Positions 22,452 to 44,705 of a DNA stretch of 64,000 nucleotides are shown here, piece by piece. The translations under genes and the position numbers were made by a program. Within the stretch, counting starts at the first letter, position 1. The number at the start of each line of letters is the position of its first letter. Under the pieces are notes generated by a model that saw only the letters and a program-made list of their open reading frames with translations, was not told where the DNA came from and searched no databases. Source of the DNA: Octadecabacter ascidiaceicola (GTDB lineage Bacteria; Pseudomonadota; Alphaproteobacteria; Rhodobacterales; Rhodobacteraceae); NCBI RefSeq assembly GCF_900185015.1, contig NZ_FXYD01000002.1:62001-126000 (forward strand), read 5' to 3'.

Positions 22452-23324
22452 TTATCGAAGAAATCCAATCGCATAGGTTGGTGTGACTTTTTCGCTTTGA
22501 ATATAAGCATTTAGCAACGCTTGGTCCGGTTGATCGGCCGTTTTGGTTTCCGTTGCGGCAAGGCCGCCGGTGATGAAAAGGCTGTCGATGTCTTCTTGTT
22601 GGGCCCCCAAAATGTCTGTGCGAATCCCGTCACCGATGGCGATTATACGTGGATCTGTTAACGAACCGTCTAAGGCTGCGTACCGACGACGGGCGAGGTC
22701 ATAGATCGGGGGATGAGGTTTGCCGAAGTAGAGGCTTTCACCCCCCATTTCCGTATACAAAGCCGCCAGCGCGCCCGCGCACCATTCGCGGGTTTCGCCA
22801 CGATCAACGATGATATCGGGATTGGCGCACAGCAGCTTTAGCCCCTTGGTTTTCGCATAAAGGAAATCGGTGCGGTTCACATCCACGTCCGCTTGGGTGT
22901 CAAAAGGGCCGCAGCAAACGATGCCCTCGGCCTGATCAAGCGGAACCTTTTGAATATCAACAGGATTTTTGATGAGCTTTAGGGGTTTGAAGAAGTCGTC
23001 ATCGCGGGGTGTTTCGCCCATGAAGTAGACCTTTTCGCCAACAATACCGCGGAACATAGCTGCGCGTGCAGAATCGCCGGAGGTCGCGATTGCGTCCCAG
23101 CATTGCGCCATGCCCATGTCCAAAAGCTGCTGCGCAACGCTGTCCCAAGGGCGCGGGGAATTGGTGACCAGCACGACTTTGCCACCGCGCTCACGGTAAG
23201 ACGCCATCGCGGAAATCGCGTCCTGAAACGGGGTAATTCCGTTGTGCATACAGCCCCAAAGGTCAACGAAAGCTACGTCATATTGATCGGAAATTTCGGT
23301 GAAGGTGTTAACGATTTGGGACAT
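22452..23324 (-). CDS. Class IIA HAD-type hydrolase, TIGR01459-like
   Basis: 290 residues from ATG 23324 (MSQIVNTFTEIS) with AAAGG 9 nt upstream; the frame is open to 23393 only because it runs through an 11-bp repeat array. The HAD nucleophile region reads FVDLWGCMHNG: Asp21 is present but the usual second Asp of DxD is Trp23, a form I recall for this family. LVTNSPRP is motif II; GKPHPPIY and IGDGIRTDILGA are motifs III and IV of NagD-like proteins. Sugar-phosphate-like substrate is a guess. Its upstream DNA is the unusual repeat described separately. Confidence 0.85.
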   Translation of the reverse strand: MSQIVNTFTEISDQYDVAFVDLWGCMHNGITPFQDAISAMASYRERGGKVVLVTNSPRPWDSVAQQLLDMGMAQCWDAIATSGDSARAAMFRGIVGEKVYFMGETPRDDDFFKPLKLIKNPVDIQKVPLDQAEGIVCCGPFDTQADVDVNRTDFLYAKTKGLKLLCANPDIIVDRGETREWCAGALAALYTEMGGESLYFGKPHPPIYDLARRRYAALDGSLTDPRIIAIGDGIRTDILGAQQEDIDSLFITGGLAATETKTADQPDQALLNAYIQSEKVTPTYAIGFLR

Positions 23325-23343
23325 GGATTTACCTTTTGTTAGC

Positions 23344-23398
23344 GGGCACAACCCGTGCACAACGCGTACACAAGCTGTACACACCCTGTACATACCGC
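23344..23398. repeat. Five tandem 11-bp repeats upstream of the HAD gene
   Basis: Units on the + strand begin at 23344, 23355, 23366, 23377 and 23388 (gggcacaaccc, gtgcacaacgc, gtacacaagct, gtacacaccct, gtacataccgc). Spacing is exactly 11 bp. The array lies between the pyrophosphatase terminator and the HAD start codon, about 20-75 bp before the ATG, so it occupies the promoter or 5' leader. It could bind a protein repeatedly on one DNA face. Confidence 0.75.
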
Positions 23399-27878: not shown

Positions 27879-29531
<1,653 letters not shown>

Positions 29532-43247: not shown

Positions 43248-44423
43248 TTAGAGCCGCCCGATTGGCGAGACCATTGTGCCGCACACAAGGCTGGTGAGGA
43301 TGCGCGGCGTTGGTGGAATTTGGCTGATCGGGAATAGGGCGCGGTCGCGGATGAGCGGGAGAAGCGCGCTGTCGGATTGATACATTGGGGTGAAGGCCCA
43401 TGACATCGCTTGGTAGATTTTCGTGTGCAGGCGGCGGGCACGGGCATAGGCGGGGAGTGCTTGTTTTATAGGCCGTGTGTTCAGGGTACGTGACAAGGCG
43501 AGCGCGTCAAGCAGCGCCATGTTGGCCCCTTGCCCGAGTTGCGGTGAGGCGCGGTGGGCGGCGTCGCCGATGTGGACGAGGCGGTTGTTGTAGGGGCGGT
43601 TAAGGGTGCCGTGGCTGTAGCGGGCCATTGTCATTTGGCCTGCGTCGGTGATTTGATCCACGAAGGGCGCAAGGGCGGGCCAGAGGGCTGTGGCCTCATT
43701 CTTCCATGCATCAAGACCCGCGTCTTGCCATGCTTTGAAACCGTTTCTGGGGAGGGACCAGAAAACGGCCGCCTTGAAGGTGTTGTCGTTCGGAAATGTG
43801 CCGATGGGCAGCGCGCCGATCATATGGGAGGCTTTGACGTAGCGCTGGGAGAGGTGGTGTTTGGGGATATCGGTCTCAGGCCAATCGACCGTTCCCCAGA
43901 TGGCGCCATAGCTTAGCGGCTTGGCCTTTATCGGGGAGAGAGGCGAGCCTGCGCCGGAGCTGTCGATGCACAGATCGAAGGGGCCGTGGCTGTCATTCGT
44001 GGCTGTGAAGACCTCAATGCTATCATCGTCTTGACGCACGGAAGTGACGTTGGATGCGGTTGTTAGCGTGATGCCTGATCGGGTTTGCATCGCCTGCCAG
44101 AGGGCATCAAATAGGGCTGCGCGGTGGATGGCGAGGCCGTAGGCATTGGGATCAACGAGGTCGTACTTGACGTCGAGCACGCGTCTGCCGTTTTGCGCTT
44201 CGATCCCGAGCATATGGGTGACGCGATTGCCATAAGACAGGGCCGTTTCGAGCGCGCCGATTTCTGCCAAGACCTGTTGGCCAACGGGCTGGATGACGAG
44301 GCCCGAGCCGACAGGTTTGGGGGTGTCGAATTGATCAAAGATCGTGATGTCGTGGCCTTGATCCGCCAGTAAACTTGCGGCGGTTAAGCCGCCCATTCCG
44401 GCCCCGATGATGGCGATACGCAT
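43248..44423 (-). CDS. FAD-dependent aromatic-ring-type monooxygenase
   Basis: 391 residues from ATG 44423 (MRIAIIGAGMGGLTAASLLADQG), GGAG upstream; the frame is open to 44516 only through an 11-bp repeat array. FAD motifs: GAGMGG (8-13), the middle DLCIDSSGAGSPL, and HIGDAAHRASPQLGQGANMAL (GD motif). Related to p-hydroxybenzoate hydroxylase-type enzymes (UbiH, salicylate hydroxylase). Substrate unknown; the gene is alone. Confidence 0.9.
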   Translation of the reverse strand: MRIAIIGAGMGGLTAASLLADQGHDITIFDQFDTPKPVGSGLVIQPVGQQVLAEIGALETALSYGNRVTHMLGIEAQNGRRVLDVKYDLVDPNAYGLAIHRAALFDALWQAMQTRSGITLTTASNVTSVRQDDDSIEVFTATNDSHGPFDLCIDSSGAGSPLSPIKAKPLSYGAIWGTVDWPETDIPKHHLSQRYVKASHMIGALPIGTFPNDNTFKAAVFWSLPRNGFKAWQDAGLDAWKNEATALWPALAPFVDQITDAGQMTMARYSHGTLNRPYNNRLVHIGDAAHRASPQLGQGANMALLDALALSRTLNTRPIKQALPAYARARRLHTKIYQAMSWAFTPMYQSDSALLPLIRDRALFPISQIPPTPRILTSLVCGTMVSPIGRL

Positions 44424-44435
44424 ACTCAAAAACTC

Positions 44436-44490
44436 CGTACGGATGGCGTATGGAATCCGTATGGGTTCCATATGGGTATCGTATGGGAAA
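44436..44490. repeat. Five tandem 11-bp repeats upstream of the FAD monooxygenase gene
   Basis: Units on the + strand start at 44436, 44447, 44458, 44469 and 44480: cgtacggatgg, cgtatggaatc, cgtatgggttc, catatgggtat, cgtatgggaaa. The first unit ends 13 bp before the start codon and overlaps the ribosome site. Same period, copy number and position as the array before the HAD gene, but another sequence. Confidence 0.78.
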
Positions 44491-44705
44491 TCTTGCACGG
44501 CCATGCAAGTTGGCACATGGGCAAACGGCGCACTTTACCGCAGGGGCGGGCGGGCCTATAAGCCCGTTATGACCATTCGCGCGATCCAGATTATTCGAAT
44601 TATATCCCCGACGTTGTGACCCCCACACGTCGGACCAAGGTGTCTGTTATGATCCGCACCGCCATTTGCAAATTCCCGAAATAACCTATCCGAAGGACGC
44701 TCCAC

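Follow-up and report, generated by a model that had tools for sequence, protein, structure and literature searches.

Clusters of five 11-bp direct repeats make up parC, the centromere of plasmid R1, a single plasmid locus that is paired with the ribbon-helix-helix (RHH) protein ParR and has the ParM motor adjacent to it. RHH dimers contact the major groove of DNA with one strand pair. Other short sites, among them the AIMS and KOPS, are oriented with replication, KOPS being single 8-mers that are read by the conserved gamma domain of FtsK, and the antitoxin BrnA is the partner of BrnT in Brucella. In Myxococcus xanthus, the RHH nucleoid-associated protein CdbA bends DNA and is not a classical transcription regulator; its direct-repeat sites, in which the two regions bound lie a helical turn from each other, number in the hundreds and lie in both intergenic and genic DNA (PMC7156744).

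Here we describe arrays of 11-bp direct repeats in Octadecabacter ascidiaceicola, beginning from a window, by which we mean the whole stretch of 64,000 nucleotides analysed, in which a first-pass annotation had noted two such arrays before unrelated genes. Neither the arrays nor the reader proposed below turned up in searches of open-access literature. The arrays and their candidate reader resemble ParR and parC in combining an RHH protein with 11-bp direct repeats at about five units per cluster, if the reader binds them as predicted; they differ in forming at least 23 dispersed chromosomal arrays instead of one plasmid locus, and no ParM-type ATPase was found among the open reading frames (ORFs) scanned beside the two reader genes of the genome under study. 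They share with KOPS an orientation that follows replication (94 of 100 arrays, with GC skew as the proxy), but they are multi-unit, and their class changes while the FtsK gamma domain hardly does. The likeness to CdbA lies in the RHH fold and in dispersed chromosomal direct repeats spaced about one helical turn apart, which are found here too; the available part of the CdbA account does not describe its sites as arrays of 3-6 units, as oriented or as variable between species (PMC7156744), and c-di-GMP binding, essentiality and an effect on the nucleoid are further attributes of CdbA. We give a probability of roughly 0.74 to the reading that the arrays are cooperative RHH sites, with one dimer per 11-bp turn, that would together form a dispersed and oriented chromosome-wide set.

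The arrays in the window and the features adjoining them are as follows:

44436-44490, minus strand: class A 11-bp array of five units (44436-44446, 44447-44457, 44458-44468, 44469-44479 and 44480-44490), minus-strand reading CCCATACGNAN, from self-match and letters
44428-44432, minus strand: T5 tract on the 3' side of the class A array in the minus-strand reading, from letters
43248-44423, minus strand: FAD-binding monooxygenase gene adjoining the class A array (Pfam FAD_binding_3, E 4e-19)
23342-23396, minus strand: class B 11-bp array of five units, minus-strand reading TGTGTACAGNT, from self-match and letters
22452-23324, minus strand: HAD-superfamily hydrolase gene adjoining the class B array (Pfam Hydrolase_6, E 6e-11)

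The letters bear out the earlier description of five exact 11-bp units at 44436-44490 that begin 13 bp upstream of the monooxygenase ATG (44423). In a lag-11 self-match this array scores 25/33 and the one at 23342-23396 scores 26/33, whereas the top lag-11 score in 200 Markov-1 random windows was 23, so the presence of a second array is real. When 26 lags (5 to 30) were scanned across the window, blocks scoring 23/33 or more numbered two at lag 11 and never more than one at any other lag (lags 9, 18, 21 and 22, with one each, that at lag 22 being the 44436-44490 array itself). The statement that the two arrays have different units holds for the flanking letters and not for a TAC core that class A and class B units have in common. 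The monooxygenase and HAD genes are neighbours of the arrays, and any control of them by the arrays is putative.

Elsewhere in the window, a 9/18-bp tandem repeat (GGCGGCATGCCAGACATG) at 29481-29525 lies within a long ORF and is unrelated to the 11-bp arrays, as is the sequence of a perfect 11-bp tandem repeat of about five identical copies (AGTCGGCGTAT) on contig C10 of the same genome (L146:1479-1530). In the gap between ileS and the monooxygenase gene, a stretch at 44560-44680 (GGGGATATAATTCGAATAATCTGGATC...GGGCTTATAGGCC) has similar counterparts in several other genera, in which the monooxygenase side is dissimilar; it is perhaps the ileS promoter or leader. Orthologues of the monooxygenase in named Octadecabacter contigs have 77-92% identity. 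In other genera, nothing at 36 monooxygenase loci reached a lag-11 score of 22/33 apart from a poly-G run, nor at 17 further such loci apart from an AT-rich block in L013.

Arrays were searched for in 19 genomes of the genus (G000 is the genome under study, other G numbers the compared genomes) as three CCCATAC units (class A) or three TGTGTAC units (class B, up to 3 mismatches). At least 23 were found in G000, 16 of class A and 7 of class B, after overlapping matches had been merged by hand. Both classes were matched in G000, G010, G013 and G015, class A only in G016, G011, G018 and G004, and class B only in G005, G014, G017, G003 and G001; counts were lopsided in G009 (15 B and 2 A), G008 (10 A and 1 B) and G002 (5 B and 0 A), G006 had a single class B match, and neither pattern was matched in G007 and G012. 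Reversed-pattern controls gave 0-1 matches per genome for class B and up to 52 in array-rich genomes for class A, the latter probably being the same arrays in a shifted register; with the stricter pattern CCATACG (2 mismatches), controls were 0 in 295 genomes except G148 (3) and G182 (1). Across the family the classes are sporadic, and the class B pattern occurred in 9 of the 295 genomes, three of them with at most 3 matches. A scan for periodicity, run free of any pattern over 0.45 Mb around known arrays, showed an excess at lag 11, which is not an unbiased density because the stretches were picked around arrays. The spacing of arrays is more even than random in G016 (CV 0.49, P 1e-4) and not in G005 or G000, so that even spacing was discarded as a general rule.

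The orientation of the arrays was scored as the strand reading CCCATAC or TGTGTAC, relative to the 20-kb surroundings of 60 arrays. The unit-reading strand is the G-poor strand in 18/20 arrays of G000, 17/20 of G005 and 20/20 of G016, and in further arrays, taken from G011 and from three genera besides Octadecabacter, the counts were 11/11 in G273, 9/9 in G216, 12/13 in G011 and 7/7 in G177. Over the seven genomes, 94 of 100 arrays are thus oriented in accord with the local GC skew (sign test 2e-21), and both arrays of the window agree with it. The sample comprised 20 of the 23 arrays in G000 (the window's being two more), 20 of the 22 in G005, 20 of some 35 in G016 and a part of those listed elsewhere; the eleven of G273 share a single strand of their contigs. 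GC skew serves here as a proxy for replication direction, on the general understanding that the leading strand is the G-rich one, and in G216 it flips locally over short distances. Genes do not explain the orientation, because in 46 of the 100 arrays most coding bases within 20 kb are on the opposite strand and because third-codon-position skew, taken in the orientation of the array, is negative for same-strand genes in 7/7 genomes and for opposite-strand genes in 6/7 (the exception being G216, +0.018).

The array element is itself asymmetric, because a phased A/T tail stands on its 3' side. Over 100 arrays of seven genomes, A+T after the core of the last unit reaches 0.81 at +7 and 0.73 at +18, against a background of 0.41, with G+C-rich troughs between the peaks. 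Runs of at least four A/T occur in +1 to +20 at 77/100 arrays, compared with 38/100 just upstream and 38/100 in +40 to +60; the T5 at 44428-44432 in the window illustrates this tendency of phased A/T-rich tracts to come after arrays. Single units outside arrays had low counts and no consistent strand bias, and a strand-biased single-unit motif was accordingly rejected.

These data bear on an alternative that we consider unlikely, namely that each array is the operator of the following gene and is read by paralogous RHH repressors. Both arrays of the window do lie just ahead of a start codon, and each of 16 reader genes in the genus is preceded by its own array, as would be expected of autoregulators; because of this arrangement, autoregulation of the reader is plausible. 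The context of 62 arrays (20 each from G000, G005 and G016, and the two of the window, with genes from an ad hoc caller) was most often one in which both flanking genes point with the array (22), followed by both genes against it (12), divergent genes (11) and convergent gene ends (7), with 10 arrays inside called ORFs (7 sense, 3 antisense), several of which are miscalled starts, the monooxygenase array of the window itself having been called inside. Set against background intergenic counts of 181, 185, 163 and 91 for genes with, genes against, divergent and convergent, the 22 of 62 amount to some excess of the first arrangement only, above its background share. Against the operator reading stand the 7 arrays between convergent gene ends, the 12 with both genes pointing against them, and the array that sits in-frame within the coding part of valS (14 of the 17 genomes parsed); the neighbours are moreover mostly unrelated housekeeping genes, as judged by eye, and the strand of an array follows GC skew and not gene direction. 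Position and orientation are therefore not fixed relative to a gene, contrary to a class of transcriptional operators, and the promoter-operator reading was abandoned for the arrays as a class, together with the earlier suggestion that they are regulatory sites before genes.

Comparison of orthologous places showed that the class of an array may change where its position does not. Of the 17 genomes parsed upstream of the HAD gene, G000 and eight others (G002, G010, G001, G003, G005, G017, G014 and G015) have a class B array there, G016, G013 and G004 one of class A, G011 one of class A' and G008 a remnant; G012, G006, G007 and G009 have none. Before the monooxygenase, G000 and G010 have class A, G013 and G015 a CCCATACC variant, G002 class C, G003, G017 and G014 class B and G001 a partial class B array; the array is degenerate in G004 and G008 and absent in G012 and G016; the monooxygenase of G005 is a gene fragment and was left out of the comparison. 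In valS, which was found in 18 genomes and parsed in 17 (G009 was left out), the array is of class A in G000, G008, G004, G016 and G010, of class B in G003, G015, G013, G014 and G017, and in another frame in G005 and G006, of class A' (GCCATACG) in G011 and of class C (TMTATACG) in G002, and valS lacks an array in G001, G007 and G012. The constraint there looks to be on DNA rather than on protein, because the peptide of the ValS loop varies with array class; loop lengths overlap, with 18-21 residues in three counted with an array and 12, 18 and 20 in those without.

Among G000, G005, G016 and G011, 25 of 32 orthologous array pairs are of differing class. The 11-bp register is kept in 16 of these 25 (A against A' in 9/9, B against A or A' in 7/16, pairs from one locus not being independent). 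Whether or not the register is kept, the class has changed at the same place. No orthologous arrays of opposite orientation were found among the pairs compared. Loss of position between relatives had been named beforehand as a finding that would refute such a class of sites; places were kept even where the class had changed, and some relatives have no array at a given conserved place.

Two genomes are of particular note in this respect. In G002 the array ahead of the HAD gene is of class B, and the only reader found, the valS array and the monooxygenase array are of class C; this single case has the look of a switch from B to C that is under way. G006 resembles the B-only genomes in its HAD start, valS loop and FtsK gamma, and it has one class B match compared with 34, 38 and 40 in G005, G014 and G017; this near-absence is what would be expected if the reader maintains the arrays, because no reader was found in G006 (88% complete). 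G017 (89% complete) is a counter-case, in which likewise no reader was found and arrays are nonetheless present.

The arrays could also be functionless repeats, selfish or mutational in origin, that arose by slippage or from an element preferring the lagging-strand template. Lagging-strand orientation is typical of some mobile elements, and this origin would suit the sporadic distribution in the family and the loss of register in 9 of the 16 pairs in which a class B array has an orthologue of class A or A'. It is improbable in view of the 25 pairs in which class differs at the same place and in the same orientation, the lack of opposite-orientation orthologues among the arrays compared, the rewriting of the ValS loop at lengths that overlap with and without an array, and the tracking by the unit letters of strand residues encoded in a separate gene, which we describe below.

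Two genes of G000 encode candidate readers for the reading that we prefer, in which the arrays are cooperative RHH sites:

G000 C2:1010951-1011430 (L139:9449-9934): candidate class B reader of 161 aa, beside a class B array
G000 C5:298453-298923 (L149:10145-10654): candidate class A reader of 169 aa, beside a class A array

Both match Pfam PF14384 BrnA_antitoxin (E 5e-15 and 2e-13) at 56.2 and 51.0 bits, above the gathering score of 26.1, which places them in an RHH family. No NCBIfam model was matched by either paralogue, and the reader profile had no match among PDB chains at E<=1. The reader of the arrays is likely a stand-alone BrnA-fold RHH protein that is encoded beside an array of its own class, and the array at 44436-44490 would be read by the class A paralogue. 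Next to the gene for the class B reader is one for ACP synthase III, and next to that for the class A reader is rpoB; the ORFs scanned beside the two also include a carboxymuconolactone decarboxylase. One neighbouring ORF cluster, which by eye looks like the carbamoyl-phosphate synthase large chain, is common to 15 of 36 reader loci, and the reader would for this reason hold an old chromosomal place in many genera. The C-terminal half of both paralogues has a weak match to PADLOC JetB (E 0.001 and 0.002), possibly by chance; JetB belongs to an SMC-like system.

The match to PF14384 and to a PHROG antitoxin family would be consistent with a toxin-antitoxin remnant, that is, a BrnA-type antitoxin with titration sites, an origin that we regard as very improbable. 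The readers differ from BrnA in being stand-alone and longer, with extra conserved N- and C-terminal regions, and in having dispersed arrays; no BrnT domain was found at E<=0.01 in eight ORFs, four beside each of the two readers of G000, the one genome scanned for this purpose, and no adjacent BrnT of a BrnTA system was thus seen there. The shared neighbour cluster at 15 of 36 loci, with a chromosomal place kept in many genera, also argues against such a remnant, as does the lack of any relative of the reader in the plasmid collection.

Reader copies within the genus were counted at E below 1e-20, with weaker matches in G008, G011 and G010 set aside as other proteins. Two copies are present in the two-class genomes G000, G013 and G015, and one in G016, G008 and G004 (A), G011 (A'), G005, G003 and G009 (B) and G002 (C); G010 (79% complete) has two array classes and one reader found. 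No reader was found in G007, G012 and G006, nor in the array-bearing G001 (79% complete), G017 (89%) and G018 (61%). The single class B reader copy of G014 (L264/L268, C1:3590075-3590556) has its frame broken inside the RHH region, a recent loss or a sequencing error, and the class B arrays of that genome look intact. To the question of whether class tracks with a regulator, the answer is that reader number equals class number in 10 of the 11 genus genomes that are at least 99% complete, the lone exception being G002, which has one class C reader and has kept a class B array.

Within the genus, 16/16 reader genes are preceded by an array that, as judged by eye, belongs to the class expected from their strand sequence (class B, TRVTIRL; class A, [VKR]KVT[IM]SL; A', RKVTMRL; C, TAISIRL), some of these own-gene arrays being irregular, with lag-11 scores below 21 in G005, G009, G014 and the C2 gene of G015. 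The strand residues b, c and d of the two G000 paralogues are R,T,R and K,T,S. With a profile built from 14 readers, relatives turned up in 35 of the 295 genomes of the family (E<=1e-20). When 30 such loci were examined, 28 of them outside the genus, 19 reached a lag-11 score of 21 or more in the roughly 320 bp preceding the gene, and six control lags together reached 21 at 1/30; units at these loci are very diverse (GATGCACATCC, CGTATGGAAA, CTTCCTTCCGT, CGTCTGGCATC and TTCATGCAGCG, among others).

An automatic rule applied to 45 reader gene loci found a lag-11 score of at least 21 ahead of the gene in 30. In these, R at position b goes with TGY in 13, K at position b with CCA in 11 and N at position c with AAGA in 2; one locus falls in no rule class (A,S,R with CTATAC), two are unclear (G182 and G232), and one is contrary (G116, whose unit TGCCATACG contains both motifs). 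G186, which at a lag-11 score of 17 falls short of the cut, looks contrary, with CATACC-like repeats and R,S,S in its strand. A tally by eye gave 14 K and 22 R with no exception, without G186, G249, the N cases, G002 and loci lacking a readable array, and we prefer the rule-based count because the tally by eye left out contrary or unreadable loci. Across genera, the strand residues of the reader and the letters of the unit change together, K accompanying CCA, R accompanying TGY and N accompanying AAGA. The proposal in the first-pass annotation of a common geometry with several specificities, read by paralogous binding proteins, is on this evidence well supported by comparison of genomes: two RHH paralogues are encoded in G000, and their strands differ in step with the unit.

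The own-gene arrays also allowed predictions to be made beforehand. GATGCAC arrays were predicted for G074, G273 and G126, which gave 52, 71 and 21 matches, and in brackets for G133, which gave 15, and G249, which gave 0 and was the only failure; the pattern was also matched in G105 (8), G302 (7) and four others (1-2). Predictions of CCATACG were all borne out (G011, 76; G091, 31; G109, 164; G147, 19), and further matches were found in G000 (15), nine others (8 to 32) and six with one each. The class B pattern was not chosen from reader genes, and 5 of 6 genomes with at least 5 matches to it have a reader at E<=1e-20 (not G290), compared with 30/289 others. With the three patterns pooled, a reader is present in 17/25 array genomes and in 18/270 others (Fisher p 1.7e-12, a value inflated because two of the patterns came from reader genes). 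The eight array genomes without a reader at this threshold are G116, G290, G302, G177, G137, G172, G158 and G326. A divergent homologue lies beside one of nine arrays examined in G116, and no homologue was found in 28 array neighbourhoods of G290, G302 and G177, in one of G137, or in two of G181, which is outside the 25.

Because the arrays are polar, FtsK gamma was tested first, and KOPS-like polar sequences for the FtsK translocase, which would fit the strict orientation of the arrays relative to GC skew, are hardly credible, since the gamma helix region is identical in 15 of the 16 genomes with a gene found, whichever array class they carry (A, A', B, C or no array; the class A genome G008 alone differs, by two substitutions), by which FtsK was rejected as a class-specific reader, and lone units outside arrays have no consistent strand bias.

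If the arrays are cooperative RHH sites, the class A and class B paralogues would read two separate sets of arrays in G000, with 3-6 dimers lining up as a filament on one helix face and the phased A/T side of the array being wrapped or contacted. The polarity of the arrays would serve a process moving with or against replication, and their role would be in the replication-linked organisation or segregation of the chromosome and not in the transcription of neighbours, a single role being presumed for all arrays. As the specificity of the reader drifts, arrays would be rewritten at the same places, and where the reader is lost they would decay. By analogy, we infer a polar chromosome-organising system that resembles CdbA of Myxococcus, with drifting specificity. 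A more specific version, which we offer tentatively and at somewhat less than even odds, is a lineage-specific marking of direction, in which RHH filaments extended by phased A/T would gate or anchor a moving machine (an SMC complex, the replisome or a segregation motor), with code and sites being rewritten together between sister species in a manner that may be likened to PRDM9 hotspots or fast-evolving centromeres.

If this is true, the sites would form a system that spans a bacterial chromosome, its polarity fixed and its positions conserved while its code drifts, and would offer a rare natural record of a protein and dozens of its sites, coding sequence included, switching specificity jointly. 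The RHH strand triplet (b, c and d) set against the 11-bp unit would then be a natural protein-DNA code drawn from many switches within the family, an RHH recognition code would be obtainable from sequence alone, and the use of oriented sites by chromosome machines in Rhodobacteraceae would become testable.
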